Assembly (NCBI GenBank): GCA_947628185.1
Contig: CANQYW010000015.1
Location: 1 to 41,360, forward strand
DNA length: 41,360 nt
Source: an uncultured Oscillospiraceae bacterium
Lineage (GTDB): Bacteria; Bacillota; Clostridia; Oscillospirales; Oscillospiraceae
Direction: 5' to 3'
Part shown: one piece after another, positions 2,167-17,715 of the stretch
Numbering within the stretch: position 1 is the first letter of the stretch
Layout: every line of letters starts with the position of its first letter
The notes under the pieces: model-generated
Told to the model about the DNA's origin: nothing
The model's database searches: none
What the model saw: the letters and a program-made list of their open reading frames with translations, nothing else
Program-made: the position numbers and the translations under genes

Positions 2167-2207
2167 CAAAATAGGAGAGAGCCACCGCCACGGTAACTCT
2201 CTCCTAT
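2167..2207 (-). terminator. Rho-independent terminator of the large sugar operon
   Basis: An 11-bp perfect stem (ATAGGAGAGAG at 2171-2181 with CTCTCTCCTAT at 2197-2207) and a 15-nt loop, followed on the minus strand by TTTTG. It lies 22 bases after the last gene of the leftward carbohydrate operon and separates it from the cob promoter. Confidence 0.85.
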
Positions 2208-2228
2208 CAAACTGTAGGCAAGCCATAA

Positions 2229-3701
2229 CTAAGGCTTATCTCTAAACTTCCTGTAGCTCTCGTATTTTCCGGCGTACCTGGCGGCGGTGGCGGGGCGGGG
2301 CACGAAGGCCCCAGCCGTGAACACCATCCCCTCCGCCGCGGCCTCGGCGTCACTGTAGACGCCGGCGGCGGAGGCCCCCAGTATCGCCGCCCCCAGGGAG
2401 GAGGACTCGGGGTTCGCCATACGCTCCACCCGGCAGCCGAAGACGTCCGCCCGCAGTTGGAGCCACTTGTCCGCCCGGGAGAGGCCTCCCCCCACCCGGA
2501 GGACGGATATCCCGCCGCCGGTGAGCCGCTGGAAGGCGTCAAATATCCCCCGCACCTCGAAGGTTATCCCCTCCACCACCGCGGCGAAGAGGTCCCGGCG
2601 CGTCGTGGAGATATCAAGGCCGGAGACCCGGCCGTGGGAGTCGATGAAGTCCGGGCAGAGGAGGAGCCGGCCGGAGCCTGAGAACTCCGCCGAGGCCCAC
2701 AGCGCGTCGTAACTTGCGGGGGAGGTGTCCCCCGCCACCTCCCGCATGAACCACTCAAGGGTGGAACCGGCGGTGTCAAAGGAGGCGGAACAGGTGGAGG
2801 TGTCCTCCAGGGGGCCCGAGGCGCCGTAGGCCCCGGCACCGGGGTCCTCCGCCAGAGGGTTTAGATACCCCCGGCGCAGAAAGCCCAGGTGGTCGTATGT
2901 GCCGGTTATGTCCGCCAGCACGTCCTCCCGCCCGCCGAAGGCCCCGACGCCCAGTATGCCGCACTCGCAGTCGTGTGCGCCGATCATGACCGGCACCTCG
3001 TCTGGGAGGGGGACCGCGCCGTAATTTCTTATGGTCCCCGCCGCGTACCCCGAGCTCTCCACCCGGGGGAGGCGGGAGAGGTCCAGCCCCGCCGCCCCCG
3101 CGAGCTCCGGGGACCAGCGGCGGGACCTATTGTCGAATAGGCAGAATCTGGCCGCCATTGTGGCGTCGCATACCGGTTCCAGCCCGAGGCGGTGGAGGAC
3201 GAACTGCTGGACGCTCCAGAACTTCGCCGCGCCCTTGAACACCCCCGGCATGTGACGCTTGAGCCATAATAACTTCGATGAGGCGGAACTTGAGTTGCAG
3301 GGCTCCCCGGTGAGCTCCGCGTGCCTGGGGCCGAGGGCGGCGGCTATCTCCGCGGCCTCGGCGACGCCCCGGGCGTCAAAGCAGAGGAGGAGGTTCGTCA
3401 TGGGCTCCCCGGCCCCGTCCACCGCCATAACGCTGTCCCCGAACCAGGAGAAACTCAGCGCCCGCAGGCGGACATTCCCGGGCAGCCCCTCGACCGTCCG
3501 GGCCACGCACTCCTGGGAGGCGCGCCAGACATCCTGGGGCCGGAGCTCCGCCATGCCCTCCGCCGGGTGGAGGAGGGGGTACTTCTTGGAGAAACCCAGC
3601 ACGCTCTCCCCGCCCCGGCAGTTTATCACGCTCACATGCACGCCGGAGGTCCCGAAGTCCACCACCAGCACCCCGTCCACCGGGGGATCAGTTGACAACA
3701 T
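2229..3701 (-). CDS. FGGY-family carbohydrate kinase (second kinase of the locus)
   Basis: A 490-aa ATP-dependent sugar kinase of the FGGY family. The N-terminal ATPase loop VVDFGTSG is at residues 13-20, the presumed catalytic Asp is D244 in GAHDCECG, and the C-terminal nucleotide-binding region carries VLRVGGGLSRADKW. Length is normal. The ATG at 3701 overlaps the end of the dehydrogenase gene upstream by 14 bases, and a GGGAG precedes it. It is the last gene before the operon terminator. The substrate cannot be read from sequence: the family phosphorylates ketopentoses, ketoheptoses, polyols and other sugars. It is clearly different from the other FGGY kinase at 5443-6963, so this is not a recent duplication. 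Confidence 0.88.
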   Translation of the reverse strand: MLSTDPPVDGVLVVDFGTSGVHVSVINCRGGESVLGFSKKYPLLHPAEGMAELRPQDVWRASQECVARTVEGLPGNVRLRALSFSWFGDSVMAVDGAGEPMTNLLLCFDARGVAEAAEIAAALGPRHAELTGEPCNSSSASSKLLWLKRHMPGVFKGAAKFWSVQQFVLHRLGLEPVCDATMAARFCLFDNRSRRWSPELAGAAGLDLSRLPRVESSGYAAGTIRNYGAVPLPDEVPVMIGAHDCECGILGVGAFGGREDVLADITGTYDHLGFLRRGYLNPLAEDPGAGAYGASGPLEDTSTCSASFDTAGSTLEWFMREVAGDTSPASYDALWASAEFSGSGRLLLCPDFIDSHGRVSGLDISTTRRDLFAAVVEGITFEVRGIFDAFQRLTGGGISVLRVGGGLSRADKWLQLRADVFGCRVERMANPESSSLGAAILGASAAGVYSDAEAAAEGMVFTAGAFVPRPATAARYAGKYESYRKFRDKP

Positions 3702-4728
3702 GCTCCCATTCCCCGGTGGAGAGGTACTTCCGGAGGGTCCTCTCCATGACGGCGAAGGTCATCCTGAACTCCTCGGAGGAGACGCCCGCCATGTGGGGCG
3801 TCAGGGTGACGTTATCAAGCGCAAGGTAGGGGGAGTCCTGTGGCAGGGGCTCTTGGGTGAAGACGTCTATGGCCGCGCCGCCGATGCGCCTCTCCCGGAG
3901 GGCGGCGATGAGCGCCTCCTCATCCACGAGGCCCGCCCGGGCCGTATTTATGAAGTATGCCGTGGGTTTCATAATTGCGATGTGCTCGGCGCGGATCATG
4001 CGGCGGGTCTTCTCCGTGAGGCGGTAGTGGACGGAGATTATGTCCGACCACTTGCAAAGTTCCTCCAGCGTCACGGGGGTGTAGCCCTCGGCCCTGATGG
4101 CCTCGGGTCTCGCGTACTCATCGAAGACGAGTATCTTGGCGCCCATGGTGGAGAGGACCTTCGCCACCCGGCTGCCCACGGCCCCGAGGCCGATGAGGCC
4201 CACGGTGCTGCCCTCGATGTTGTATGAGTAGTCCTTATTCGTGTAGTAGTTGACCCAGTTGCCCCGCATGATGTCCGCGTGGCTGCGGGCGATGTTGCGT
4301 ATCTCCGCTATGATGAGGCCCACCGTGTACTCTGAGACGCACACCGCAAGCCTCCCGGGGGTGTTTATGACCTTCACCCCGCGTTTTGCGGCGTGGGTCG
4401 CGTCAATATTCTCGGTGCCGCTGCGGAGGATGCAGGCGGCGCTCAGGTGCTCGGCGTTGTCCACCGAGGCGGAGGATATGGCGCTAAAGTAGCTTATCAC
4501 CACGTCGGCGTCCTTTATCTCCCGGAGGATGTCCTCGTTTTGGGGGACGCTGTCCGGGCCCTCGGTCTCAAATTGCAGCTGGTACTTCACCAGCTCGTCG
4601 TAGCTAAAGTCCGGGTGGTCCTCAACTATCTTGAGCTCCGCGCCGTAGTCCTCCACAAAGCGGAACATCTCCGCCTGCTCCACGCTCATGAGGGAGTCCC
4701 TAACCAGGAGTATCTTCTTCTTTTCCAT
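3688..4728 (-). CDS. D-isomer-specific 2-hydroxyacid dehydrogenase (NAD-dependent, SerA-like fold)
   Basis: A 346-aa soluble oxidoreductase. The Rossmann motif GLGAVG is at residues 180-185, followed by Asp203 at the end of the second strand, suggesting NAD rather than NADP. The family's catalytic triad is present: R264 (NTARAGLVDE), E293 (TQEPLP) and H312 (LTPHMAG). Length fits the 2-hydroxyacid dehydrogenase family but lacks the C-terminal ACT domain of many serine-pathway SerA proteins. Its position between a TIM-barrel gene and a sugar kinase argues for a role on a sugar-derived hydroxyacid rather than serine synthesis; this is inference. The start has only a weak ribosome site. Confidence 0.85.
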   Translation of the reverse strand: MEKKKILLVRDSLMSVEQAEMFRFVEDYGAELKIVEDHPDFSYDELVKYQLQFETEGPDSVPQNEDILREIKDADVVISYFSAISSASVDNAEHLSAACILRSGTENIDATHAAKRGVKVINTPGRLAVCVSEYTVGLIIAEIRNIARSHADIMRGNWVNYYTNKDYSYNIEGSTVGLIGLGAVGSRVAKVLSTMGAKILVFDEYARPEAIRAEGYTPVTLEELCKWSDIISVHYRLTEKTRRMIRAEHIAIMKPTAYFINTARAGLVDEEALIAALRERRIGGAAIDVFTQEPLPQDSPYLALDNVTLTPHMAGVSSEEFRMTFAVMERTLRKYLSTGEWEHVVN

Positions 4729-4758
4729 ATAAGTCCGCTCTTTTCTTTGTATTTTTAC

Positions 4759-5430
4759 TCACTCGCCGATGGATCCCATGTATCTCTCCACCGCCAGAAG
4801 GTTCTCCCTGAAGGAGCCGCCGGGCACGAAACTGCCTGTAAAGAAGGCGCTGCCGATGGTGTAGCCCCAGGCGCCTTTCTTCTGCATGAGGGATATGCGC
4901 TCATAGCTATTGATGCTCCCGGCCACGAGGGTGGGGAGGTCCACCTCGGCAAAATACCTGTCCATGAGCTCGGTGGTGTCGCCCTCGAACCTGTAGAGTA
5001 ATAGGTCGGTGCCGTCGATCCCCAGCTCCCGGAACTTCTTGGCGTCGCCGATGACATCATCTGGGGTCTTCCCGAGGATGGAGGGACTTGCCCAGACCTT
5101 GCCGCAGAAGGGGAAGAATTTTAGGCCCGTGCCGCGGATCTTCTCAAGCACCGAGGGGTAGTAGACGGTCCCTAAGAGGTAGTCAACACCGCAGTCAATG
5201 GCGGTCTGGGCAGCCTCCAGACACTCCTCCTCGCTATATGTGACGACCTCCATGTAGGCCGTCTTCCCGGCGGCGTGGATGTCCCGCGCCAGCTCTATGA
5301 GCGTCTCCTTGGGGACGCCCACGTTCTTGAATCCCCAGTCCTGGGTACGGGTGTCCCGGCACTGGGCGAAGACCTCCCGGGCGTTGGGGACTGTTTTGTC
5401 ATTTTGGGTCAGCATTACTACAAGCCTCAT
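4759..5430 (-). CDS. TIM-barrel protein of unknown function in the sugar operon
   Basis: A 223-aa protein with no signal or membrane segment. Alternating strands and helices (VVMLTQND, AYMEVVTYS, VDYLLGTVYY, TDLLLYRF, LPTLVAGSI, GYTIGSAFF) suggest a (beta/alpha)8 barrel. The late VAGSIN and TIGSAFF strands resemble the phosphate-binding loops of ribulose-phosphate-binding barrels such as HisA or NanE. I do not recognise a specific family. The start ATG at 5430 has AAGGAGAT upstream, and the gene follows the FGGY kinase by 12 bases. Epimerase, isomerase or aldolase activity on a sugar phosphate made by that kinase is a reasonable guess, no more. Confidence 0.7.
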   Translation of the reverse strand: MRLVVMLTQNDKTVPNAREVFAQCRDTRTQDWGFKNVGVPKETLIELARDIHAAGKTAYMEVVTYSEEECLEAAQTAIDCGVDYLLGTVYYPSVLEKIRGTGLKFFPFCGKVWASPSILGKTPDDVIGDAKKFRELGIDGTDLLLYRFEGDTTELMDRYFAEVDLPTLVAGSINSYERISLMQKKGAWGYTIGSAFFTGSFVPGGSFRENLLAVERYMGSIGE

Positions 5431-5442
5431 ATGTCTATCTCC

Positions 5443-6963
5443 TTAACTGAATTTTTTAAATACCGGCCTCAGGGCGGCGAAGACCGCCTTGTACTTCTCT
5501 ATAAGCTGGTCGTAGGCGGCGCGGTTTTTGGGGTCGGGCTCAAAGCGCCGCTCGGGTCTCGCGAACCGCTCCGCGGTCTCCGGCACGGAGTCCCAGAGTC
5601 CCGCGCCCACACCTGCGAGGATCGCGGCGCCGAGGCACGCGGCGTCGTCGGTGTTCGTCATCGTCACCACCGGCACGCCGGTGGCGTCGGCCTTTATCTG
5701 GCACCAGAGGGGGCTCTTGGCGCCGCCGGAGAGGGAGCGTATCTCCCGCACCTCCACGCCCATGGCCCGGACGGCCTCCGTCATGCGCAGGAGCACCATG
5801 GCCACACCCTCCATGAAACCGCGGACTATGTGGCCCTTCGTGTGCTTGAGGGCGAGGCCGTAAATGAGCGCCGAGGCGCTCTGCTCGGAGTCCGGGGGGC
5901 CGGAGCTCTGGAAGTGGGGCAGGACCAGAAGTCCCTCGGACCCCGCCGGCACCTGGGTGGCCTCGCCGTTCATGATGTCATAGGTGCTCATGCCGGCCCT
6001 CGCGGCCACGTCCGCCTCCTGGGTGCAGAGGGTGTCCCGCAGCCACTTGTAGGCGATGCCCCCGCTGCTAAAGGCGTGTATCATGTACATGCCGGGTATG
6101 GCGGTGTAGAAACAGGGCATCTGGCGGTTGGGGTCGAAGGCCGGGCGGGGCGTCATGGCGCAGACGGCCAGCGCCGCGCCGGTGCTCTCGGAGAAGACGC
6201 CCTCACGGACGTTCCCCACGCCTATGGCCCCGCAGGACTGGTCGAGCCCGCCCATGACGAGCTGGAGGCTGGGGTCGAGGCCCAGCTCCTCCGCCACCGC
6301 CGGCAATATGGTCCCCAGGGGCGTGCCGGACTCCACGATCTCCGGGAGCTGATCCCGCCGGAGTCCCAGCTCCTCCACCATCTCCGGCCAGTAGGTCTTC
6401 GTGGTGATGTTCCAGAGGATGGTGGAGCACCAGAGGGAGCCCTCGCCATAGTAGCCGCCCATGAGGCGCATGAAGAACCAGTCCTCTAAGAGGAGGTACT
6501 TTGCGGCCCTATCGTAGACCTCCGGCTCGTGGTCCCGTATCCACTTTATCTTCGCCGCCGGCCACAGGGCGGTCATCTCCACCTGGCCGGTCACCTTATG
6601 TATGGTCTCGTTTGTAAAACGGGCCGCCAGGGCGTCGGACTCCGCCTGGGCCCTGTTGTCCATCCAGACTATGGCGTTGCGGAGGGGCCTGTCCTCCCCG
6701 TCAAGGACGAGGAGCGTCTCCCCCTGGGCCGAGACGCTCAGCGCCAGGATGTCCCGGGGGGCGACGCCGGACCTCTCCAGCACCTCCCGGGTGCCAGCCT
6801 TAAAGCAGTTCCAGTAGACCTCCGGGTCCTGCTCCACCACCGTCTCGGTGGGTGTTATGAGCCTGTGCTCCTGGGTGGACACCGCCGCGGCGGCGCCGTT
6901 CTCGTCAAAGAGCGCCACCTTGATGGCGGTGGTGCCCAGATCGACTCCAAGTAGGTACCTCAT
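5443..6963 (-). CDS. FGGY-family carbohydrate kinase (xylulokinase/gluconokinase-like)
   Basis: A 506-aa FGGY kinase. The first phosphate loop is GVDLGTTAIK (about residues 6-15), the catalytic Asp is expected at D241 in MGGLDQSCG, and the C-terminal ATP region reads IRSLSGGAKSPLW. It is of xylulokinase/gluconokinase length. I chose the ATG at 6963 (MRYLLGVDLG), which has GAGGTGGAG directly upstream and begins the first strand; an upstream frame adds six residues that overlap the cupin stop. It is co-directional with and 7 bases from the cupin gene. The sugar is not predictable, although the family and the nearby RbsABC-type transporter suggest a ketose or polyol. Confidence 0.9.
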   Translation of the reverse strand: MRYLLGVDLGTTAIKVALFDENGAAAAVSTQEHRLITPTETVVEQDPEVYWNCFKAGTREVLERSGVAPRDILALSVSAQGETLLVLDGEDRPLRNAIVWMDNRAQAESDALAARFTNETIHKVTGQVEMTALWPAAKIKWIRDHEPEVYDRAAKYLLLEDWFFMRLMGGYYGEGSLWCSTILWNITTKTYWPEMVEELGLRRDQLPEIVESGTPLGTILPAVAEELGLDPSLQLVMGGLDQSCGAIGVGNVREGVFSESTGAALAVCAMTPRPAFDPNRQMPCFYTAIPGMYMIHAFSSGGIAYKWLRDTLCTQEADVAARAGMSTYDIMNGEATQVPAGSEGLLVLPHFQSSGPPDSEQSASALIYGLALKHTKGHIVRGFMEGVAMVLLRMTEAVRAMGVEVREIRSLSGGAKSPLWCQIKADATGVPVVTMTNTDDAACLGAAILAGVGAGLWDSVPETAERFARPERRFEPDPKNRAAYDQLIEKYKAVFAALRPVFKKFS

Positions 6964-6970
6964 CTCCACC

Positions 6971-7306
6971 TCACAGCTCACTGGGGGCCAGGGAGAAACT
7001 GACTACCGCCATCCCCTCGCCTATGTTCGTGAGCTCGTGGGGCACGCCCTCGGGCATGAGTATGGCGTCCCCCTCGGAGAGCTCGTAGCAGCGGTTGTCA
7101 TTTGGTGTGCGGAGGATGACGTTCCCCTTCACCACGAAGAAGACCTCGTTGCCGTTGGGGTGCCCGTTGTCCACGGCCCCGGTGTCGCCGGGGTGGAGCG
7201 TGCATGTGCCGAAGGTGATCTTCTCCGTCTGGAAGTACATCCTGTCAAGCTCGGGGCCCTCGAAAAAGGCCCGGGCGTCCTTGGGGGTAACTACCTTGAT
7301 TTCCAT
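6971..7306 (-). CDS. Small single-domain cupin
   Basis: A 111-aa cupin starting MEIKVV at 7306 with AAGGAGC upstream; a longer frame to 7366 overlaps the permease gene and lacks a site. The double cupin motif is visible: motif 1 around HPGDTGAVDNGHPNGNEVFFVVKG (two His and a Glu as metal ligands, then G) and motif 2 around ILMPEGVPHELTNIG (third His). Cupins of this size in sugar operons can be isomerases (lyxose isomerase-like), epimerases or accessory sensors. It lies between the permease and kinase genes, consistent with processing of the imported sugar. Function is unassigned. Confidence 0.82.
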   Translation of the reverse strand: MEIKVVTPKDARAFFEGPELDRMYFQTEKITFGTCTLHPGDTGAVDNGHPNGNEVFFVVKGNVILRTPNDNRCYELSEGDAILMPEGVPHELTNIGEGMAVVSFSLAPSEL

Positions 7307-7323
7307 ATTTTGCTCCTTTCCGC

Positions 7324-8310
7324 TTATCTTGCGTCCTTCCTGAGCTTTGCGGAGGCCACGAGGCACAGCGCCACCAGCAGCAGCGCGCCCTGTACCACCT
7401 CTTTCGCCCAGGCGGGTGTGTTGCAGAGGGTCATGCCGTTCAGGATTATCGTGTATAAGAGCGCGCCAACCAGCGTGCCGGGGACGTTATAGACGCCGCT
7501 CTTTAAAAAGAGCGCACCGAACATGAGGACAGTCAGCGCCTGGGTGAATATGGCGTCGCCCATGGTGGCGAGGCACCCGTTGAGCATCGAGCCCTGGACT
7601 ATGCCGGCTATGCCGCATATGACGGAGCAGAGCACGAAGGCGATGGTCTTCTGGAGTTTCGCGCTTATGCCGAGGTAGTTGCAGGCCTTTGAGTTCACGC
7701 CCACGGCGTAGATGTACTTGCCCCACTTGGTCCGCTCGGTGAATAGGAGCATCACCACCGAGACCGCCACCAGCACTATCACCGGCATTGGTATTACGCC
7801 GAAGAGATACCCCTGTCCCACGAAGGTGAAGGCCTTCGGCCACTGGGGCAGGGCGTATATCCCGCCGCCGTTTGTGAGGTACTTCAGCACGCCCTTCACG
7901 AGGAACGAGACGCCGAGGGTCGAGACGAAGGCGGGTATCCCCACAACGATGTGGAAGAAGGAGTTCATAAGGCCGATGCCCACCATTATGAGGAGCGTCA
8001 GCACGATGGCGAGAGCGTAACTGTTGCACCAGTCGGTCCTCAAAAGAAGGGCCATGGAGCAGGCGCCTGTCGCCACCTCAATGCCGGCGCCGAAGTCCAG
8101 CTCGCCGGAGGCGTAGATGCAGGTTATGCCCATGCCGGCTATGCCGGTGACGCACGCGGAGCTCAGGATATTGAGGAGGTTCCTCCCCTTGAAGAAGGCC
8201 GGCTCCAGTGTGCCGAAGAACACCGCCACGAGGATGGTGAAAAAGCCTATCCCGTACTTGCCCAAAAACTCGATGGTGCTGTCTTTTTTGCTCAATCTAT
8301 TACCTTCCAT
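7324..8310 (-). CDS. Sugar ABC transporter permease, RbsC type (second permease)
   Basis: A 328-aa integral membrane protein, with 8-10 hydrophobic segments by eye, of the branched-chain/ribose permease superfamily (BPD_transp_2). The family-typical region GITCIYASGELDFGAGIEVATGA is present, as is a cytoplasmic loop TERTKWGKYIYAVGVNSKACNYLGI that contacts the ATPase. It starts with GGAGATACGA ahead of the ATG and follows the other permease by 21 bases. It probably forms a heterodimeric channel with the product of 8332-9339, since the two share the same loop pattern but are well diverged. Confidence 0.92.
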   Translation of the reverse strand: MEGNRLSKKDSTIEFLGKYGIGFFTILVAVFFGTLEPAFFKGRNLLNILSSACVTGIAGMGITCIYASGELDFGAGIEVATGACSMALLLRTDWCNSYALAIVLTLLIMVGIGLMNSFFHIVVGIPAFVSTLGVSFLVKGVLKYLTNGGGIYALPQWPKAFTFVGQGYLFGVIPMPVIVLVAVSVVMLLFTERTKWGKYIYAVGVNSKACNYLGISAKLQKTIAFVLCSVICGIAGIVQGSMLNGCLATMGDAIFTQALTVLMFGALFLKSGVYNVPGTLVGALLYTIILNGMTLCNTPAWAKEVVQGALLLVALCLVASAKLRKDAR

Positions 8311-8331: not shown

Positions 8332-9339
8332 TCAAACATCAAAGGACATGCCCCGCAGTCCTTCCTTGCGGAAGACTGCCACGATACCAACGGCCACCAG
8401 GAGGATCGCGCCCTCCACCATGTCCTTGACGTAGAACATGCCGCCGGCGCTGAGGACGCCGTTCGTTATCATCACCATGAAGACGGACGCCAGGAACGAC
8501 CCTAAGACGTTGTAGACGCCCAGCTTATAGAACGTGGCCCCCAGGAACACCGCGCAGAGCGCCGGGGTGAATAGGTCCTCATAGATGGTGTTCGTCACGA
8601 CGCCGGCGTTGGCCGTCGTGAGTATGCCCGCCACGGCGGCAAAAGTGGCCGAGAGGGCGTAGGCTATGTACTTAATTTTCTTAACGTTTATGCCCATCTG
8701 GGTGCAGGCCGTGGTGTTGGCCCCCACGGAGTAGAGGTACCGGCCGTACTTCGTGCGCTCGGTCAGGATGAAGGCTATGACTATCATGACGATGCACACT
8801 ATAAACGGCATGGGCACCACGCCGAAGAGCCGCCCCTGGCCCAGGAAGTAGTAACTGCGCTCCCAGTTGCGGGACATATATACGTGGTTGTCTGTGAGGA
8901 ATTTGTTGACGCCCACCAGTATCATCTGCACCGAGAGGGTGCCTATGAGGGCGGGGATCTTGAATCTTATGACTATGAACCCGCAGAAGAGGCCGATCCC
9001 CGCCACGATCAGGAGCGTCGCCACGAAGGAGACGGCGTAGTTGTGGAAGAGCCCCGACATGTCCGCCAGCCGCCCTATGATCCCCGCGGCCACCATCGCC
9101 TGGGCGCCCATGGCGAAGTTGATGTCGCCCGTCAGCTGCACGAACATGCCGGCCATGGAGAGTATGGCGTAGATACTCGCGGTCCTCAGTATGTTCATCA
9201 CGTTCGTCACATTGAGGTACGCCGGCTGGAGGATGGAGAAGAGGATCGCCGTTGCCACCACCGCTATGAGCAGGAAGTAGTTGAGAATGCTGGTGCGCCT
9301 CTTCGACTCAGCCCTCTTTGATAAATCAAGCGTTTTCAT
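8332..9339 (-). CDS. Sugar ABC transporter permease, RbsC type (first permease)
   Basis: A 335-aa polytopic membrane protein of the same family as its downstream neighbour. Family signatures are MFVQLTGDINFAMGAQAMVAAG and the coupling loop LTERTKYGRYLYSVGANTTACTQMGI. Its ATG at 9339 overlaps the ATPase gene's 3' end by 14 bases, so translation is likely coupled. The paired permeases, the single two-domain ATPase and the lipoprotein receptor make a complete CUT2-type importer for monosaccharides or polyols. Confidence 0.92.
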   Translation of the reverse strand: MKTLDLSKRAESKRRTSILNYFLLIAVVATAILFSILQPAYLNVTNVMNILRTASIYAILSMAGMFVQLTGDINFAMGAQAMVAAGIIGRLADMSGLFHNYAVSFVATLLIVAGIGLFCGFIVIRFKIPALIGTLSVQMILVGVNKFLTDNHVYMSRNWERSYYFLGQGRLFGVVPMPFIVCIVMIVIAFILTERTKYGRYLYSVGANTTACTQMGINVKKIKYIAYALSATFAAVAGILTTANAGVVTNTIYEDLFTPALCAVFLGATFYKLGVYNVLGSFLASVFMVMITNGVLSAGGMFYVKDMVEGAILLVAVGIVAVFRKEGLRGMSFDV

Positions 9340-10962: not shown

Positions 10963-12267
10963 TCAGCCGCCGATGGATACATCGCCGGAGTTGCCCTCTG
11001 CCACCATGTAGATGCCGGGGCCGTCGGTCCAGTTGAACCAGGCGTCGGGGTCGTCGGGGTCCATGCCGTAGTAGTCAAAGACCGCGTGGATGGGCTGGCC
11101 GATCTCGGGGACGTTGGCGGCGGTGGTGACGAAACCCTCGAAGAAGAGGGTGTCGCCGGCCTTGGCTATGGAGCAGCCCTCGTCGCCGGGGTTGAGGCCC
11201 TTGACCTGGATCTGGTCGATTATCTCAAATACGTTGTGGGTGAACTGCTCAAAGGGCTGGGAATAGGTGTATTTGAGGGGGGTGTTGTTGCGGATGTACA
11301 TCCAGGCGGTGTTGCCGCCGTCGATACCGGCCACCACGGTCTTCTCGCCGTGGGGGTCGCCGGCCTGGATGACGGCCTCAGCGGCGCCGGCGCCCATGAG
11401 GTCCCAGGAGGTGTAGATGAGGTTCATCTCGGAGCCGTACTGGGACATCCAGGTTTTGGCGAACTCGTAGGAGGCCTGGATATCGGGGTAGGTGACGGAC
11501 TTTATGTCCTCCTGAGCCAGGAGCTTGACGTTGGGATACACGCCGTCAGCGAAGGACATGACGGGGTAGGTCCGCTCGATGTGGACCTGAGAGTTATTGT
11601 CATGGATGACGCCCATGTTTATGTCCCAACCCAGATCCGGGCCGATCTGATAGAAGAGCTGCATGGAGGCCACGCCGTTGGGCATGGTGCAGTTGCTTAT
11701 GACGCCGTCTATGACCTGGTTGTCGTTGCAGTAGACGCCTATTCCCTTGTTGCGGGCCTCAGCCACGATATCAGCGTAGGACTCCATATAGCTGCAGTTC
11801 TCGAAGATTATGGCGTCCACGTCCTGATTCATGAGGTTGAGGAAGGTGTCGCGGACCTGGGGGTCGCCCTCGCAGGTGCCGTCAACAAGCGTCCAGCCCC
11901 TGTGCTCGCACTCGATCTGGGACTGCCAGAGGGAGCGGTAGAGGGAGTCGGCCTTGATGTCCATGACTATGATGCCCACCGTGAGCTTGCCGTCCTCCTT
12001 GACGCGGGGCCTGGTGAACTCGTCAAAGGCGGTGTAGGTGCCGGGGGTGCTGGGGGTATTCGTGTCGCCGGGGTTCGTGTCATCGGGGGTGTTGCCGCTG
12101 GGGTTATTATCGCTGGGGGTGTTGTTGTCGCTGGGGTTATTGTCGCTGCTGGGGTTGTTGTTGCCGGGGTTTGAGTCGCTGGGGTTTGAGTCCGTGTCCC
12201 CGCTGCATCCTACGGCCACGCCGAGGAGCATCGCCAGGGTCAGCAAGAGAGCCAGTGCTTTTTTCAT
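10963..12267 (-). CDS. Lipoprotein sugar-binding protein of the ABC transporter (RbsB-like)
   Basis: A 434-aa secreted lipoprotein. The signal peptide MKKALALLLTLAMLLGVAVGC has its lipobox Cys at residue 21. A low-complexity Asn/Pro/Ser/Asp/Thr linker follows to about residue 77. The rest looks like a periplasmic-binding-protein type 1 domain (KLTVGIIVMDIKADSLY, QDVDAIIFENC, KTVVAGIDGG). The ATG at 12267 has a clear AGGAGG 8 bases upstream, while a longer frame to 12342 has none. It is unusually large for the family because of the linker and extended C-terminal half. It would capture the substrate outside the cell and deliver it to the two permeases. Confidence 0.92.
   Translation of the reverse strand: MKKALALLLTLAMLLGVAVGCSGDTDSNPSDSNPGNNNPSSDNNPSDNNTPSDNNPSGNTPDDTNPGDTNTPSTPGTYTAFDEFTRPRVKEDGKLTVGIIVMDIKADSLYRSLWQSQIECEHRGWTLVDGTCEGDPQVRDTFLNLMNQDVDAIIFENCSYMESYADIVAEARNKGIGVYCNDNQVIDGVISNCTMPNGVASMQLFYQIGPDLGWDINMGVIHDNNSQVHIERTYPVMSFADGVYPNVKLLAQEDIKSVTYPDIQASYEFAKTWMSQYGSEMNLIYTSWDLMGAGAAEAVIQAGDPHGEKTVVAGIDGGNTAWMYIRNNTPLKYTYSQPFEQFTHNVFEIIDQIQVKGLNPGDEGCSIAKAGDTLFFEGFVTTAANVPEIGQPIHAVFDYYGMDPDDPDAWFNWTDGPGIYMVAEGNSGDVSIGG
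12037..12204 (-). repeat. Degenerate tandem repeats encoding the N/P/S/D-rich linker of the binding protein
   Basis: The plus strand shows repeated units of about 12-18 bases such as GGGGTTATTGTCGCT and GGGGTGTTGTTGTCG. They encode reiterated SDNNPSDNN, NNPS and GDTN blocks. This is in frame throughout and belongs to the lipoprotein gene. It looks like a slippage-prone minisatellite that could vary in length between strains. Confidence 0.8.
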
Positions 12268-12351
12268 CTTTTTACCTCCTAAAAATTTTGTTCCATTTAT
12301 TTTTTGGCACACGGCCTGGAAACTATGACTACTTCTCTCCACCGCCTCCTC

Positions 12352-13173
12352 TCACGTCCGATCGATGAGGGTCCTCATATAAGCCACCGCCTCCGGGAGC
12401 TCCACGGCGGGATCCCCCATCACGGTACACTCAAACGACATATACCCGTCAAAATCTATCTCCTTCAGCGCCCGGACTATCCCGGGCCAATCTAAGTACC
12501 CACGGCCCGGCAGCCGCCTATTAGTGTCCCCGATATGTACGTGCCGCACGTACCCGGCGCAGTTTCTTATGACCGACGCCAGGTCCTCCTCGTCGAGACT
12601 CATGTGGAAGAGGTCGCACAGGAGCCCCGTGTTGGGGCGGCCCGCCCGCTTTATGAACTCCAGCGCGTGGCTCTGGAGATTGACATAATTTGCCTCGTAC
12701 CGGTTCACCGCCTCCACCAATACCGTCACGCCCTTGGGGGCGGCGTAATCGGCGATCTCCCCCAAGACGCCCGTGAACTCCGCCTGCTTGTTCTCCGGCG
12801 GCATGGGGTAGGAGTTATTGTTGTAGGAGGGCATGTCCCGCCGGTGGGAGCACTCGTACTCTATCTCCGTCAGCGCGCCTGCCTCACCGCAGATGTCCAC
12901 CGCCCTCTTCACCATGGCGATGTTCTTCGCCTTCTTCTCCGGGTCGTCGCTCACCAGGTTCCCGAAACACTCATCTATGAATGCGAACTCGCAGGGCTCT
13001 ATCCCGGCGGACCTCACCGCTTTGAGCTCCTCCGCAAACCCCGGCCCGCACTCCTCGAGGGTCCTGTAGACGGTGACGCCCTCAAACCCCCACTTCCTCA
13101 GAAGTTCTGCCTTCTCGGGGAGCGTCCCCTCCCCCAGGAGGGAATCCACACACGCAAGTCTTATCCTGCCCAC
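12352..13173 (-). CDS. Sugar phosphate isomerase/epimerase family TIM-barrel protein
   Basis: A 273-aa protein of the xylose-isomerase-like barrel family (AP endonuclease 2 fold). Probable metal ligands sit in VLVEAVNRYE, LLCDLFHMSLDE, HVHIGDTNRR and the final MSFECTV strand, the usual E-D-H-E arrangement of hydroxypyruvate isomerase, tagatose-3-epimerase and related enzymes. I chose the GTG at 13173 (VGRIRLACVD) because GGGAGG lies 7 bases upstream. It is the first gene of the long leftward operon, directly behind a consensus promoter. It probably isomerises or epimerises the imported sugar or a downstream intermediate. Confidence 0.85.
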   Translation of the reverse strand: MGRIRLACVDSLLGEGTLPEKAELLRKWGFEGVTVYRTLEECGPGFAEELKAVRSAGIEPCEFAFIDECFGNLVSDDPEKKAKNIAMVKRAVDICGEAGALTEIEYECSHRRDMPSYNNNSYPMPPENKQAEFTGVLGEIADYAAPKGVTVLVEAVNRYEANYVNLQSHALEFIKRAGRPNTGLLCDLFHMSLDEEDLASVIRNCAGYVRHVHIGDTNRRLPGRGYLDWPGIVRALKEIDFDGYMSFECTVMGDPAVELPEAVAYMRTLIDRT

Positions 13174-13207
13174 TGAAAAACCTCCCAATAAAACCAACCG
13201 GTGTCAG

Positions 13208-13290
13208 TTTGTTTTTGTTGGGTTTATTATATTCTATTGCGTTTGCTATGTCAATACCAAGTTTATTTTTTGTTTTGATTTGTTTTTATG
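13208..13290. promoter_or_regulatory. T-rich direct-repeat region between the divergent promoters, DeoR operator candidate
   Basis: The plus strand carries repeated TTTGTTTTTGTT (near 13208-13219), TTTTTTGTTTTG and TTTGTTTTTATG (13267-13290) motifs. They flank or adjoin both promoters in an otherwise GC-rich genome. DeoR-family sugar regulators such as AgaR and GlpR commonly bind short T-rich direct repeats, and a DeoR gene lies in the rightward operon. Assignment of these repeats as its operator is inference. Confidence 0.4.
13226..13254 (-). promoter_or_regulatory. Consensus sigma-70 promoter of the leftward sugar operon
   Basis: On the minus strand, TTGACA (13254-13249), exactly 17 bp, then TATAAT (13231-13226). 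Both hexamers match the consensus fully. Transcription would start near 13219, about 45 bases before the GTG start at 13173. Confidence 0.9.
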
Positions 13291-13319
13291 TTGACAATAC
13301 TTGTGTTTTGGACTATAAT
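13291..13319 (+). promoter_or_regulatory. Consensus sigma-70 promoter of the rightward sugar operon
   Basis: TTGACA (13291-13296), 17-bp spacer, TATAAT (13314-13319); both boxes are perfect. It drives the zinc dehydrogenase gene starting at 13356. A promoter this strong on a catabolic operon implies tight repression when the sugar is absent. Confidence 0.9.
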
Positions 13320-13355
13320 CCAGATATCCCAACATATCAGGAAAGGAGAATGTAT

Positions 13356-14519
13356 ATGGCAAATTATTCAAGAGCCGCTGTGCAGACGGATGTCAGAAAG
13401 CTGGAGCTCATGGACCTGCCGATACCCGAGGTCCGGGACGACGGCATGCTCATCCGGGTAGAGGCCGTGAGCATATGCGGCTCGGACGTACACTACTTCA
13501 GGAACAAGCCCATATTCCCGGCGGTGCTTGGTCATGAGGTGTGCGGCACCATTGTGGAGATGGGCAAGGACGCCCGGAGGACGATACACGCCTTTTACGG
13601 CCCCTTGAGCGTAGGGGACAGGGTGTGCGTGTACCCCGGCGTGACCTGCGGCAAGTGCATGGACTGCCTCACCTACGGCGACGGGGTCTACACCATGTGC
13701 CGGGACACCTTCGCCTACGGCGATTTCTTCCAGTACCAGGGCGAGGGAGAGCCCCCGTTCACGAACCGCGTAAATGAGTGGCCGTACGTCACCGGCGGTT
13801 TTGCGGAATACATGTACATATACCCCAACACCTACGTCTGGAAGGTGCCGGACACCATGCCCAGCCGCATAGCCTCGCTCATCGACCCCCTGGCCTGCGC
13901 CCTCCGGGCGGTGGAGCTGGCCCAGCGGGCCCCCGGCGTTTTGGAGGACTCCATGAATGTGAACTCCACGGCGCTCATAATGGGCGACGGGGCGATAGGT
14001 CTCTTCGCGGCATTTTACGCGAGGCTCCTCGGCGTGCGGCAGGTCCTCATGATCGGCGCCAGCGAGTATAAGCTGGGGGTAGCGCGGGACTTCTCCGGCG
14101 TTGACGCGGGCATAAACACCCTCGCCTCCACCTACGAGGAGCGCCGGGAGTTCGTCCTCTCCCGCACCGGCGGGCGCGGCGCGGACACCGTAATAAACTG
14201 CGTGGGCAACGCCAAGGCCTTCCGGGAGGGCGCTGATCACATGAAACGCATGGGCACCATGGTGGACATCGGCAACGCCATAAACCCCGCCCCGGTGGAG
14301 TTTGACGTCCAGCGCGACCTCACCTTCAAGCACGGCACCTACATGGGCATGATGGCCACCACCCCCGCCACCTTCAATAAGTCCTTCACGCTCCTCCTCC
14401 AGGACGAGAAATTCCACTTCGATAAGATATTCACCGGCCAGTTCACGCTGGATACCCTCCAGGGCGCCCTGGAGAACGCGACGAGTCCGGAGTATATCAA
14501 AGGATTTATCCAGTTTTAA
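13356..14519 (+). CDS. Zinc-dependent medium-chain dehydrogenase (polyol/threonine dehydrogenase type)
   Basis: A 387-aa MDR-family enzyme that probably oxidises a secondary alcohol of a polyol or sugar with NAD. Catalytic zinc ligands are C41 (ICGSD), H60 and E61 (LGHE). Structural zinc Cys are C98, C101 and C104, with C115 as the fourth; the last spacing is ten residues instead of the usual seven. The nucleotide fold has IMGDGAIGLF. The ATG at 13356 is preferred to the one at 13350 because AGGAAAGGAG then sits 7 bases upstream. It is the first gene of the rightward operon. The closest functional types would be sorbitol or L-iditol dehydrogenase, but the substrate is not established. Confidence 0.88.
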   Translation: MANYSRAAVQTDVRKLELMDLPIPEVRDDGMLIRVEAVSICGSDVHYFRNKPIFPAVLGHEVCGTIVEMGKDARRTIHAFYGPLSVGDRVCVYPGVTCGKCMDCLTYGDGVYTMCRDTFAYGDFFQYQGEGEPPFTNRVNEWPYVTGGFAEYMYIYPNTYVWKVPDTMPSRIASLIDPLACALRAVELAQRAPGVLEDSMNVNSTALIMGDGAIGLFAAFYARLLGVRQVLMIGASEYKLGVARDFSGVDAGINTLASTYEERREFVLSRTGGRGADTVINCVGNAKAFREGADHMKRMGTMVDIGNAINPAPVEFDVQRDLTFKHGTYMGMMATTPATFNKSFTLLLQDEKFHFDKIFTGQFTLDTLQGALENATSPEYIKGFIQF

Positions 14520-14539
14520 GTAGATTTCGCACTTTTTGC

Positions 14540-14568
14540 TTTACAATCAAATCTAATTAATCTATATT
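14540..14568 (+). promoter_or_regulatory. Probable internal promoter ahead of the aldolase gene
   Basis: TTTACA (14540-14545), 17-bp spacer, TATATT (14563-14568), each 5/6 to consensus, in an AT-rich 68-base gap. It could give the aldolase-regulator-isomerase genes expression independent of the dehydrogenase. Confidence 0.55.
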
Positions 14569-14587
14569 TATAAAGGACGGGTTTAGT

Positions 14588-15439
14588 ATGAACACAAAGA
14601 CACTCAAAGAGCTCCTCAGGGAGGCAGACGAGGGCGGTTACGCCATCAACGCCTTCAACTTCACTGACGTCTGGGACATGCTCTCCATAGTCGAGGCGGC
14701 GGAGGAGGAGAAGGCCCCCGTGATCCTCATGGCCCACCCGGAGAACTTCTCTCAGGAGTCCCTGGGCATGTGCGGCGCGATGGCGCTGCAGGCGGCCCGG
14801 GAGGCCAGCGTGCCGGTTATACTCCATCTGGACCACTCCAACTCCATCGACGTCTGCAAGGCGGCGGTGGACTACGGGTTCCCCTCCGTGATGATTGACG
14901 CCTCCTCCCAGCCCCTGGCTGAGAACATCCGCCGCGTCAAGGCCGTGGTGGACTACGCCCACTCCGCCGGAGTGCACGTGGAGGCCGAGATGGGCCGCAT
15001 AAAGGGCGGCGGCATCGAGGGCGGCTATTACGGCAACGACTTCTTAGCGCAGGTCAGCGACTGCGTGGCGCTGGTGGAGGAGACGGGCGTTGACTGCCTG
15101 GCCGTCGGCATCGGCACCGCCCACGGTTTCTACACCGAGAAGCCCGAGCTCAACTTCAAGCGCCTGGAGGAGATAAATAACGCGGTCTCCGTGCCCCTGG
15201 TGCTCCACGGCGGCACAGGCGTCCCCCGGGAGGACGTCCAGAAGGGCATAAAGCTGGGCCTCAACAAGATAAACGTCGGCACCTGCATCGCCGCTACATA
15301 CATGAACAGCATGAGGGACGAGCTCGTTAAGTTCGGCGACAACGCTTTCACCATCGACATAGTCGGCCCCGTCAAGGAGCGCATCAAGGCCGTAGTAAAA
15401 GAATGGATAGGGGTGTGCATGAGCGCCGGAAAGGCCTGA
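14588..15439 (+). CDS. Class II (zinc-dependent) ketose-bisphosphate/ketose-phosphate aldolase
   Basis: A 283-aa class II aldolase of the FbaA/GatY/KbaY family. The catalytic Asp82 and zinc-binding His83 lie in VILHLDHSNS. Further metal and phosphate elements are VEAEMGRIKG, GIGTAHGFY (zinc His), LVLHGGTGVP (zinc His, K+ and phosphate loop) and KINVGTCI. It cleaves a phosphorylated ketose to dihydroxyacetone phosphate plus an aldehyde. It shares a locus with two sugar kinases and a polyol dehydrogenase, so it is probably the committed cleavage step of this catabolic pathway rather than the glycolytic aldolase. The true substrate (ketohexose bisphosphate or a ketose 1-phosphate) cannot be told. 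Confidence 0.9.
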   Translation: MNTKTLKELLREADEGGYAINAFNFTDVWDMLSIVEAAEEEKAPVILMAHPENFSQESLGMCGAMALQAAREASVPVILHLDHSNSIDVCKAAVDYGFPSVMIDASSQPLAENIRRVKAVVDYAHSAGVHVEAEMGRIKGGGIEGGYYGNDFLAQVSDCVALVEETGVDCLAVGIGTAHGFYTEKPELNFKRLEEINNAVSVPLVLHGGTGVPREDVQKGIKLGLNKINVGTCIAATYMNSMRDELVKFGDNAFTIDIVGPVKERIKAVVKEWIGVCMSAGKA

Positions 15440-15453
15440 GCCCCCCTTCCCTT

Positions 15454-15469
15454 CTAATATAAATATTAG
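15454..15469. repeat. Small inverted repeat upstream of the DeoR gene
   Basis: CTAATAT-AA-ATATTAG, a perfect 7-2-7 repeat in the 50-base gap between the aldolase and regulator genes. It is too AT-rich and tight to be a good terminator. An operator role is possible but unsupported. Confidence 0.35.
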
Positions 15470-15489
15470 GTAAGGAATTAGGAGGCACC

Positions 15490-16272
15490 ATGACTAACAA
15501 GGAAGTTAGGCTGTCCGCGCAGGAGCGCCAGATGCAGATCTCGCGCATCCTCATGTCAAGGGACAGGATCCTGGTCAATGAGATCGCGGAGATGTTCTCC
15601 GTGACCATGGAGACGGCCAGGAAGGATCTTTTCGCTTTGGAGAAAAACGGCGTTGTAAAACGATTCCACGGGGGCGCGGTAAAACAGAATAATTACCTGC
15701 CCGGCGCGTTCGTCATAAACGAACGAATGGAGCAGAACACCTTGAATAAGCGGAAGGTCGCGGCGAAAGCCTCCTCCCTCATAGCCGATGGCGCCACCAT
15801 ACTCATCGACTCAGGAAGTACCACGTATTTCCTCAGTGAGGCCATCACCTCTAAGCGCAACATGCTGGTGATAACGAATTCCCTCTCCATCGTGACGCTC
15901 ATGGCCAATAACTCCATCCGCACCATGATGATCGGGGGCGAGGTCTTCAAGTCCGACATGTCAGCCGTGGGCCTCTGGCCGGAGCTGTGCCTTGCCAATA
16001 TCAATGCCGACATCGCCATCATCGGGGCCACGGGGCTCAACAGCCCCTCCGGCCCCAGTGTGGAGAACTTTTTGGAGTCGAACGTCAAGAACATGATGAT
16101 CCAGCACTCCAAGTACTGCTATGTGGTGGCGGACAGCAGCAAGTGCCTGACCTCGTCCCTGGTGCAGTTCGCCAACTGGGAGGACATTGACGGCCTCATT
16201 GTGGATTCCGGCGTTCCTGAGTCATTCATTGAAAAAATCGGAAACAGCACGAGGATAATCATTGCTGATTAA
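15490..16272 (+). CDS. DeoR/GlpR-family transcriptional regulator
   Basis: A 260-aa regulator. The N-terminal winged helix (about residues 10-65) has the DeoR signature: RILVNEIAEMFSVTMETARKDL, then LEKNGVVKRFHGGAV. The C-terminal DeoR sensor domain, related to sugar-phosphate isomerases, shows TILIDSGSTTYFLSEAI, LVITNSLSIV and IGATGLNSPSGPSVENF. DeoR members usually repress and are released by a phosphorylated sugar intermediate. AGGAGG lies 7 bases before the ATG. It sits inside the rightward operon and probably controls both divergent promoters, with a kinase or aldolase intermediate as inducer; this is inference. Confidence 0.93.
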   Translation: MTNKEVRLSAQERQMQISRILMSRDRILVNEIAEMFSVTMETARKDLFALEKNGVVKRFHGGAVKQNNYLPGAFVINERMEQNTLNKRKVAAKASSLIADGATILIDSGSTTYFLSEAITSKRNMLVITNSLSIVTLMANNSIRTMMIGGEVFKSDMSAVGLWPELCLANINADIAIIGATGLNSPSGPSVENFLESNVKNMMIQHSKYCYVVADSSKCLTSSLVQFANWEDIDGLIVDSGVPESFIEKIGNSTRIIIAD

Positions 16273-16281
16273 GGAGCGTTT

Positions 16282-17613
16282 ATGAAAAAACTGACCATTG
16301 GCGTCGCCGTGGCGGCCAACGCGGCGGAGCTGGGCGGGGACCGGGCCCAGGAGCTCTCCGCTGCCCTCTGCGAGTCACTTCGGCGCAACGGCTTGGACTA
16401 CATACCGGCGGAGAGGGTCATCTGGAACTCCGCCGACGCCCTCTCCGTGACACGGAGATTCAACGCCGCCGGCGTGGACCTGGTGGCGCTCATCCACGCC
16501 TCCTGGCTCATGGACAACATCCAGTACCTTGTCTACAACTCCAGCGCCTGCCCCGTTGTGCTCTTGAGCGTGCCCTACATTGAGACCTTCTCCATGGCCT
16601 CGGTACAGCATTTCGCCGCCACCCTCCGCCGCAGCGGCAAGTTCTGCAGGACCATCTCCGCGCCACTGGAGAGCGACGAGGCCGCCCTTGCCCTCAAGGA
16701 CGCGGCTCTCGGCGCCGCCGCCGCCAAAGCCGTCAGAAATGCCGTGGTGGGCTCCATCGGCCCCCGGCAGACCTGGCGCACCGCCGGCGCCCAGGACATG
16801 ACCTACGATGAGTGGGACCTCACGAATAAGTTTGGCGCTCTCGTTGTTCACATCGAGAACAGCGAGTGGCGGGAGACCATAGCGGCCCAGAGCGACGAGG
16901 CCGCGGCCCGCGTGCTGGCGGAGCTCAAGGCGGACGGCCGTCTGAAGTTGGAGCTCTCCGACGAGCACCTCATTCTGAGCTGCAAGTCGTACCTCGCGAT
17001 AAAAGCCCTCAGGGACAAGTACGGCCTCACCTGCGCCGCCGCCCAGTGCTACCCGGAGTTCGGGGGCATGTCGAATCTTGCGGCCTGCCTTTTAGCGGAC
17101 GAGGGGTTCGTGCTGGACACCGAGGGCGACATCTCCCACGCGCTCATGATGACCGCCCTCAACACCATGGACGGCAAGGCCTCCGCTCTCTGTGAGTGCG
17201 GCACCGTTGACGACGCGAACGGCGTGCTCTACCTCTCCCACGAGGGCAGTACCGCCCTCTCAAAGCTCCCCGCCGGCGGCACGGCATATATCCAGGAGTG
17301 CGGCGAGGGAGTCATGATAGGTTTCCTCCTCCGGGGCGACTCGGAGCTCACGGTCCTCGACTTCTCCGGCCAGGCCGGGCGGTATAGGTCCGTGGTGACA
17401 AGGGCGTCCCTCGCCCAGTGCCCGGACAGCGCGCTCGTTGACAACCTCTACAGGTTCACCGCCGCCCTCCGGCCCCGGTGCCTCCCCTCCGAACTCTACA
17501 GCCGGCTCATCGCCGCCGGCAGCGACCACCACTTCATTCTGAAGTCCGGCGACCTCACGGGGGCCATATCCGCCATGAACGACCTTCTGGGCGTGGAGAC
17601 CATCGCCCTCTGA
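16282..17613 (+). CDS. L-fucose/L-arabinose isomerase-like protein
   Basis: A 443-aa protein of the FucI/AraA superfamily, which interconverts aldoses and ketoses with Mn2+. Visible features are the N-terminal nucleotide-like domain (VDLVALIHASWLMDN), a probable metal Glu in CAAAQCYPEFGG, a metal Asp in VLDTEGDISHALMM, and the C-terminal metal His in SDHHFIL. It is shorter than classical FucI (about 590 aa) and nearer the uncharacterised fucose-isomerase-like group. It follows the DeoR gene by 9 bases with AAGGAG, and a terminator follows. It probably converts an imported aldose or a dehydrogenase product to the ketose used by a kinase. Catalytic activity is not certain. Confidence 0.82.
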   Translation: MKKLTIGVAVAANAAELGGDRAQELSAALCESLRRNGLDYIPAERVIWNSADALSVTRRFNAAGVDLVALIHASWLMDNIQYLVYNSSACPVVLLSVPYIETFSMASVQHFAATLRRSGKFCRTISAPLESDEAALALKDAALGAAAAKAVRNAVVGSIGPRQTWRTAGAQDMTYDEWDLTNKFGALVVHIENSEWRETIAAQSDEAAARVLAELKADGRLKLELSDEHLILSCKSYLAIKALRDKYGLTCAAAQCYPEFGGMSNLAACLLADEGFVLDTEGDISHALMMTALNTMDGKASALCECGTVDDANGVLYLSHEGSTALSKLPAGGTAYIQECGEGVMIGFLLRGDSELTVLDFSGQAGRYRSVVTRASLAQCPDSALVDNLYRFTAALRPRCLPSELYSRLIAAGSDHHFILKSGDLTGAISAMNDLLGVETIAL

Positions 17614-17625
17614 CCCAATAAAGCA

Positions 17626-17672
17626 AAAAATGCCTGGGAAACCCGAAATCAGGGTCCATCCCAGGCATTTTT
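17626..17672 (+). terminator. Terminator of the rightward sugar operon
   Basis: A 14-bp stem: AAAAATGCCTGGGA (17626-17639) with TCCCAGGCATTTTT (17659-17672). The stem ends in T and A runs on both sides, so it may act on both strands. It lies 12 bases after the isomerase stop. Confidence 0.9.
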
Positions 17673-17678
17673 GCGCAT

Positions 17679-17715
17679 AAAAAGGCCCCGGGGGGCTTTG
17701 ATGTCCTCCGGGGCC
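17679..17715 (-). terminator. Terminator of the rplJ-rplL operon
   Basis: On the minus strand GGCCCCGG (17715-17708) pairs with CCGGGGCC (17691-17684), followed by TTTTT (17683-17679). It lies 23 bases after the rplL stop. Confidence 0.9.

Follow-up and report, generated by a model that had tools for sequence, protein, structure and literature searches.

The nearest published remark on a gene combination of the kind described here, in the accessible part of one study, is that DUF4867 cupins, FucI-family isomerases and FGGY kinases are often found together (PMC11968277), and, so far as the accessible parts of that study and of a second one go, sulfo-EMP2 clusters combine PF02952, PF01116 and PF02826 proteins, usually with the cupin SqvB (PMC11968277, PMC9594981). 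Here we describe a carbohydrate locus of 14 open genes (2229-17613), arranged as two divergent operons, in a 41,360-nucleotide stretch of DNA from an uncultured Oscillospiraceae bacterium (hereafter the window), which is one entire contig (CANQYW010000015.1) of a draft genome of 1.82 Mb that is 83% complete (GCA_947628185.1). The earlier note on this DNA could equate the locus with no known pathway, and this still holds: no equivalog cut-off was reached among the NCBIfam matches listed for the 14 proteins, and a literature search, with most subscription papers outside its coverage, found no description of the gene set. The locus is best read as a putative composite pathway yielding dihydroxyacetone phosphate (DHAP), and the argument for this reading starts from three adjacent genes that recur together in other bacteria.

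The FGGY2, TIM223 and cupin module

The three genes lie on the minus strand of the left operon and encode TIM223, a 223-residue triosephosphate isomerase (TIM) barrel with a predicted phosphate site (4759..5430), which matched no Pfam model, the second of two FGGY kinases (FGGY2, 5443..6981; FGGY_N/FGGY_C) and a cupin of 111 residues (6971..7306), whose start was set by homologues and whose longer, 131-residue frame matches Cupin_2 at 5.1e-13. Relatives of TIM223 are encoded at 212 loci in named genomes, and we surveyed the best 80 of them in a three-sequence profile search headed by the window protein; since the profile starts from the window's TIM223, this sample is skewed to its relatives. 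Defining a module locus (context A) as a TIM223 locus with an FGGY2 relative at 40% identity or more, we found an FGGY2-like kinase at 22 of the 80 (in L084 the match is 85 residues at the stretch end, 9.7 kb from TIM223). The cupin was present at 15 of the 22 module loci and at 2 of the 58 other TIM223 loci, and the isomerase that closes the right operon of the window at 7/22 and 0/58, respectively. One Glu and two His columns are conserved in an alignment of 16 cupins.

Outside the module, TIM223 has as neighbours DUF1537 kinases, HAD-like genes and FGGY kinases, the last from at least two clades. A second recurrent setting (context C, or group C) comprises five of the 80 loci (L078, L130, L135, L137 and L139) together with L056 of genome G021, which came from a separate search and stands outside the 80. 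These loci combine TIM223 with a zinc dehydrogenase, a hydroxyacid dehydrogenase, an Fba-like aldolase and another FGGY kinase, and no FGGY2-clade kinase, cupin or isomerase was found in the stretches examined.

The earlier note had called the two FGGY kinases of the window dissimilar, and they indeed fall in different clades of a tree of 42 kinases, which included seven Escherichia coli FGGY references and from which rows shorter than 380 residues were dropped (module loci L071, L084, L096 and L129 and group C locus L137 have no kinase row in it). One side of a branch with support of 99/99, recovered in 98% of bootstrap trees, holds FGGY2 together with 18 kinases of context A, by which 18 of the 22 module loci are represented. 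This clade of 19 rows, which includes kinases encoded near TIM223, is separate from the seven E. coli kinases and spans Bacillota, Chloroflexota, Pseudomonadota and Actinomycetota; within it, FGGY2 is placed with rows from Paracoccus, Sinorhizobium, Streptomyces and Rhodococcus. The best NCBIfam match of FGGY2 is XylB, below threshold, and the tree sets its clade apart from XylB, so that a distinct kinase clade comes to light despite that best match. FGGY1, in turn, joins five kinases of group C with support of 99/99, its branch having a length (3.2) that urges caution, and its four best BLAST matches in the compared set all belong to group C, at 26-28% identity. For FGGY specificity, five signature positions have been published (accessible part of PMC3245297), and at these positions FGGY2 reads GELDA and FGGY1 GDSDH, both unlike the eight E. 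coli kinases compared; the FGGY2 clade reads GE-x-D-A/T, save for three rows with SENDA and one that is incomplete, and the context-C kinases read GDIDG. In a metagenome-assembled genome (MAG), the FGGY2-type kinase gene of L074 (12275-13792) is cut by an in-frame stop, which may reflect misassembly or decay of the gene.

The structure model and tree of TIM223 were built on an alignment of the window protein, 56 of the 80 loci, L009 and L010; L114 was excluded for a stop in its translation and the remaining loci by choice. The model is confident and has a phosphate-binding barrel fold, namely a TIM barrel with its phosphate site at strands 7 and 8, as in ribulose-phosphate-binding barrels. Members of the OMPDC suprafamily, HPS and KGPDC carry a DxKxxD motif on strand 3. 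This motif is absent from TIM223 (MEVVTYSEE around strand 3 of the window protein), and an hhalign comparison with SgbH gave an E value of 0.25. The candidate catalytic residues are K35 (strand 2), E61 (strand 3) and D142 (strand 6), which to our knowledge fit no mechanism of the fold.

The wider surroundings of TIM223 are varied. Within four same-strand genes in 80 rows, which for this count include five loci from a separate search, we counted 24 VanW-like, 19 YqeG-HAD-like and nine iron-containing alcohol dehydrogenase (Fe-ADH) genes, the first two named from translations and one annotation, the last by Pfam; this Fe-ADH family is related to glycerol-1-phosphate dehydrogenase. VanW-like and YqeG-HAD-like genes stand near TIM223 in many Bacillota loci (L053, L054, L057, L082 and others), and on a Staphylococcus warneri plasmid (NZ_CP054016.1, 9020-11181) a 1365-base coding sequence by TIM223 is annotated YqeG-HAD and has a predicted vanW match at 31.9%. 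In the five plasmid records read, TIM223 follows a DUF1537-type kinase and PdxA, save that no kinase was seen in L020 and no PdxA in L021. On the Pseudomonadota plasmids among them (L017, 11995-13059; L018; L019; L020) TIM223 lies behind PdxA, with the DUF1537-type kinase in three of the four and a cupin sometimes fused or next downstream; in L018-L020 TIM223 is annotated as 4-hydroxythreonine-4-phosphate dehydrogenase, a label that looks borrowed from the neighbouring gene. In Eubacterium callanderi and its kin (L070, L073, L160) an EutH ethanolamine-type permease (Pfam, 5e-129) sits between TIM223 and the FGGY2-clade kinase, with an Fe-ADH gene, the glycerol-1-phosphate dehydrogenase relative, nearby. 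In Ruminococcus turbiniformis (L077, 2579-14728) a set of genes for a 2-oxoacid dehydrogenase (E1 parts by Pfam, E2 and E3 from translations) encloses FGGY2, TIM223, the isomerase and an MFS-like gene, and in L111 (2545-7417) FGGY2, cupin and TIM223 adjoin an apparent BMP-type nucleoside ABC (ATP-binding cassette) transporter, named only from translations. Naming a substrate from neighbours was tried and failed, the transporter families and side genes of the module loci suggesting sugars, acids and amines.

Isomerase, aldolase and dehydrogenases

The isomerase (16282..17613, +) matched no Pfam model at 0.01 when searched alone, and its match to the model of the sulfoquinovose isomerase SftI was weak (8.8e-7, 28 bits, against a cut-off of 700). 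The SftI model nevertheless matches all eight members of the isomerase family, the best at 7e-34, and Fucose_iso_C matches the seven other members (best 6.8e-5) but not that of the window. The family profile reached the L-arabinose isomerase structure 4lql at 2e-5, placing E281, E305 and H320 in register with the EGD, ME and SH positions of 4lql, which we take to have a metal role; H417 was aligned solely in a forced alignment and in a non-significant hhalign to AraA. All four residues are invariant across the eight members. These comparisons place the protein in the AraA/FucI superfamily, within a rare subfamily that is distant kin of sulfoquinovose isomerase. The families that the earlier note gave to this isomerase and to two TIM barrels stand, with the refinement that the former is of a rare SftI-related subfamily and that one barrel, TIM223, has no Pfam model. 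The isomerase was found in 3 of 391 genomes of the class at 1e-40, its own included. At E <= 1e-20 its own is also the one genome with it among 34 of the genus, so the locus is not a general feature of that genus.

The class II aldolase (14588..15439, +; PF01116, 3.7e-88) retains in alignment the Zn-ligand positions and the DHAP-side region. In bisphosphate aldolases the arginine of a DPR motif contacts the second phosphate; the motif is present in the E. coli tagatose-bisphosphate aldolases KbaY and GatY and absent from the window aldolase and from YdjI, which RefSeq names a 1-phosphate aldolase. Since the DPR arginine is missing, a ketose-1-phosphate would be the likelier substrate. Among NCBIfam subfamily models the aldolase passes only the broad cbbA (ketose-bisphosphate aldolase).

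Three further genes complete this set: FGGY1 (2229..3701, −; FGGY_N/FGGY_C), the D-isomer 2-hydroxyacid dehydrogenase (3688..4728, −; PF02826, 4.6e-60), which is 33-35% identical to the group C copies, and the zinc polyol dehydrogenase (about 13359..14519, +; ADH_N/ADH_zinc_N), whose nearest relative in the compared set is E. coli YdjJ (27%). Together with the aldolase, they resemble the second cluster type, group C, in make-up.

Readings of the pathway

We tentatively read the locus, while thinking it somewhat likelier that this reading fails than that it stands, as a two-part catabolic set for a monosaccharide or polyol, whose second part handles the aldehyde half. As we infer the reactions, the CUT2-type transporter would import the substrate, the zinc dehydrogenase and/or a 3-epimerase-like barrel would turn it into a ketose, FGGY1 would phosphorylate this at C1 and the class II aldolase would split the ketose-1-phosphate into DHAP and an aldehyde. 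The FGGY2, TIM223 and cupin module, with the isomerase, would then take the freed carbonyl fragment: the metal isomerase would convert aldose to ketose, the cupin open or interconvert the ring form, FGGY2 phosphorylate the ketose, and TIM223 rearrange the phosphorylated carbonyl into a central metabolite. A side product (a 2-oxoacid or the acid of the aldehyde) may go to the hydroxyacid dehydrogenase, and the DeoR regulator may repress both promoters until a pathway intermediate binds. The earlier note had inferred a flow from import through oxidation or isomerisation and phosphorylation to cleavage, with the hydroxyacid dehydrogenase handling the aldehyde or its acid. The cleavage to DHAP and an aldehyde fits an aldolase without the DPR arginine and is retained, and the order import, isomerisation, phosphorylation, cleavage stays presumptive; a single ordinary line of generic parts suits the set poorly, as the TIM223 family travels with FGGY2 and the cupin, and FGGY1, the dehydrogenases and the aldolase are like a second cluster type.

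Also possible, if doubtful, is a fucose-type order, in which the isomerase, with the cupin as mutarotase, makes a ketose, FGGY2 converts it to ketose-1-phosphate and the aldolase yields DHAP and an aldehyde, FGGY1 phosphorylating that aldehyde or a second, polyol-derived ketose and TIM223 epimerising a sugar phosphate. The gene roles would parallel FucI-FucK-FucA, the aldolase suits a 1-phosphate, and the Lachnospiraceae MAG locus L063 has FGGY2, cupin, CUT2-type ATPase and permease, DeoR and a FucA-like aldolase with no second FGGY kinase in the stretch. However, among the seven loci with both isomerase and FGGY2 no aldolase gene of the FucA-like or Fba-like kind was seen in the stretch, six of them having genes of the pyruvate-type families DHDPS or HpcH/HpaI and L077 showing no gene of any of the four kinds, and the retention of TIM223 with kinases of several clades is left unexplained. 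What inclines us, mildly, to the two-part reading is that aldolases occur at 14 of the 22 module loci and that the window holds a second, context-C-type kinase. The four unrelated aldolase kinds (FucA-like, DHDPS, HpcH/HpaI and Fba-like) were found in 14/22 context A, 5/5 context C and 4/53 other loci (14/22 vs 4/53, Fisher 1.0e-6), an association that is inflated because the queries were chosen after viewing the context-A and C loci.

This inflation weighs against the two-part reading, as do several other observations. Eight of the 22 module loci have none of the four aldolase kinds, and only two of these (L075, L111) are short stretches. The transporters of module loci vary widely (CUT2, TRAP, EutH, branched-chain and ProU, all but EutH, a Pfam match, named from translations), and so their substrates may differ; group C loci contain TIM223, which is therefore not specific to FGGY2, and contexts are not cleanly separated in the TIM223 tree, where two changes are needed. 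The fold matches of TIM223 include several enzyme families within about 2 Z units and name no reaction. A search anchored on FGGY2 speaks partly for the two-part reading: the kinase was present in 3 of 390 other genomes, two of them with TIM223 within 3 kb, but one of these two, G613, carries a near copy of the E. callanderi locus already among the 80, which leaves one independent case of linkage. L161 has an FGGY2 relative (E 7e-127) and no TIM223 in 13.6 kb. Plasmid records gave no FGGY2-clade kinase among the best 40 of 452 records (top identity 33.9%), cupin matches of up to 45% identity, and isomerase matches in two records at 22-25%. Neither of the hhalign comparisons of the isomerase with single E. 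coli proteins, AraA and FucI, was significant, and within the 20 kb read neither TIM223 nor an FGGY2-like kinase was seen in the two further genomes of the 391 with an isomerase-family member. Lastly, group C is further from the aldolase and the zinc dehydrogenase than are E. coli GatY/KbaY and YdjJ, respectively, and given this kinship and the long branch of FGGY1, the likeness of the FGGY1 set to group C rests on make-up and not on near kinship.

Sulfoglycolysis of the sulfo-EMP2 kind, with the isomerase acting as SqvD/SftI, the aldolase as SqiA, an FGGY kinase in place of SqiK and the dehydrogenase acting on sulfolactaldehyde, would agree with the SftI matches of all eight isomerase members and with the published pairing of families cited in our opening; we nevertheless consider it very improbable, as the window isomerase reaches 28 of the required 700 bits and no DUF4867, PF00365, PF14833 or sulfoquinovosidase was found by Pfam among the 14 proteins. 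A weak PF03446 match (24.9 bits, cut-off 21) lies inside the PF02826 hydroxyacid dehydrogenase, and with no PF14833 there is therefore no separate sulfolactaldehyde reductase. True sulfo-EMP2 was rejected on the missed SftI cut-off and on the DUF4867 cupin, PfkA-type kinase and reductase not found among the 14. Still less probable is a galactitol/tagatose-type bisphosphate pathway: GatY/KbaY are the nearest relatives of the aldolase in the compared set (38%), but DPR is lost, the aldolase falls below the NCBIfam cut-offs for GatY, KbaY and tagatose-bisphosphate aldolase, and no PfkB or phosphotransferase system family was found among the 14 proteins, and on these points the route was rejected. 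Least probable of all is an Lsr-like autoinducer-2 (AI-2) or other dihydroxy-diketone pathway, to which the CUT2-type transporter and LsrK, the best solved match of FGGY2, might point; FGGY2 lies outside LsrK in the tree, its signature is GELDA and that of LsrK RELDQ, and no LsrF-, LsrG- or LsrR-type family matched among the 14, and so this reading too was rejected.

A broader proposal, which we consider unlikely as a whole, is that FGGY2, TIM223 and the cupin form a portable salvage module for a small carbonyl freed by many aldolases, that TIM223 is a new enzyme family, its candidate residues outside the mechanisms of the fold known to us, and that in the window this module is coupled with a second kinase-aldolase set, so that both sugar halves are used. 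If the locus does work as a pathway of this kind, gut Bacillota would have an additional carbon-use pathway and the TIM223 family would become testable; since TIM223 is common to many kinase and HAD contexts, one solved reaction would inform them all.

The locus, its surroundings and known systems

The earlier note had placed 14 genes of the named families here, and reading frames together with Pfam, NCBIfam and PDB matches bear it out. The left operon (all −) further encodes two CUT2-type permeases (7324..8310, PF02653 2e-30; 8332..9339, PF02653 3.8e-29), a CUT2-type double ATPase (9326..10855) with two ABC_tran stretches and best models of AraG/XylG type below cut-off, and a lipoprotein-like sugar binding protein (10963..12342; Peripla_BP_4, 3.2e-13; weak PDB matches to CUT2 binding proteins) that has a linker of ~60 residues, rich in Asn, Pro, Asp and Ser, behind its lipobox-like cysteine. 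The ketose 3-epimerase-like AP_endonuc_2 TIM barrel follows (12352..13197; PF01261, 1.9e-33; PDB D-tagatose 3-epimerase, 6.5e-25), scoring 105.9 bits for psicose epimerase and 117.9 for IolO, under the NCBIfam cut-offs of 300 each. A DeoR-family regulator (15490..16272, +; HTH_DeoR and DeoRC) lies in the right operon.

The proposal of two operons with one control region is supported by the gap between them, which holds two outward-facing sigma-70-type promoters of the form TTGACA-17-TATAAT with 12/12 matches each, one for the left operon (13226..13254, −) and one for the right (13291..13319, +). Promoter-like sites number 11 in 16 kb, where shuffled sequence gives 4.3 (standard deviation 1.8), and none of the others is perfect. 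A tandem TTTGTTTT(G/T)A repeat between them (13269..13288), located by repeat search, is a plausible candidate DeoR site. Inverted repeats past FGGY1 (2171..2207, −; 17-nt arms, 88% complementary) and past the isomerase (17626..17672, +; 14-nt perfect arms) may mark the ends of the left and right operons, respectively.

The locus is bordered on the left by cobU/cobT (99-1783) and on the right by rplL/rplJ (from 17739), with rpoD and dnaG, named from translations, beyond. The GC content of the locus is 61.0%, that of the right flank 60.2% and that of the left flank, which is short, 67.7%; at third codon positions it is 0.78-0.89 across the 13 called locus genes; a recent insertion was considered and set aside, the composition of the locus being that of the genome. 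A search for 13 of the locus genes (all but the cupin) in 10 stretches from nine congeners found none of them; cobT and rpoD are non-adjacent in these stretches, which therefore offer no empty site for comparison. Elsewhere in the window (28080-32649, +), a response regulator, histidine kinase, ABC ATPase and large permease follow one another in an order resembling peptide-antibiotic sensing/detoxification modules, as named from translations only.

Against the described systems, the locus shares with the E. coli L-fucose pathway (FucI-FucK-FucA-FucU) the isomerase superfamily, an FGGY kinase, an aldolase giving DHAP and an aldehyde, and a small ring-form protein, but the isomerase subfamily, kinase clade (neither FGGY protein falls with FucK in the tree) and aldolase family (PF01116, not FucA) differ, and the window adds the extra kinase, TIM223, the two dehydrogenases and the CUT2-type importer. 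With sulfo-EMP2 (SqvD, SqvB, SqiK, SqiA) it has in common an SftI/SqvD-related isomerase, a cupin, a PF01116 aldolase and a PF02826 dehydrogenase, whereas its kinase is FGGY rather than PfkA-type and its cupin Cupin_2 rather than DUF4867. The E. coli ydjE-ydjL cluster is alike in its PF01116-type aldolase without DPR (YdjI), Zn dehydrogenase (YdjJ) and regulator, which is of DeoR type; it has no isomerase, cupin or TIM223 annotated, and its kinase YdjH is PfkB-type, not FGGY.

No examined locus has all 14 genes. Group C shares the zinc and hydroxyacid dehydrogenases, an Fba-like aldolase, an FGGY kinase (of the FGGY1 clade in 5/6, those in the tree) and TIM223, but has a DeoC-like gene in 5/6 and is 25-37% identical to the window, or 38-46% for TIM223. 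L063 comes closest in make-up: FGGY2 is 47%, TIM223 55% (the nearest) and the cupin 44% identical, and it also has the CUT2-type ATPase and permease, DeoR and an aldolase, differing in that the latter is FucA-like (PF00596), in a flavin reductase-like gene, and in that no isomerase, FGGY1 or zinc dehydrogenase was found there. Set beside these systems, we class the locus as a variant of DHAP-yielding sugar catabolism that carries a conserved module, and it is this module with its barrel enzyme that makes it of interest.

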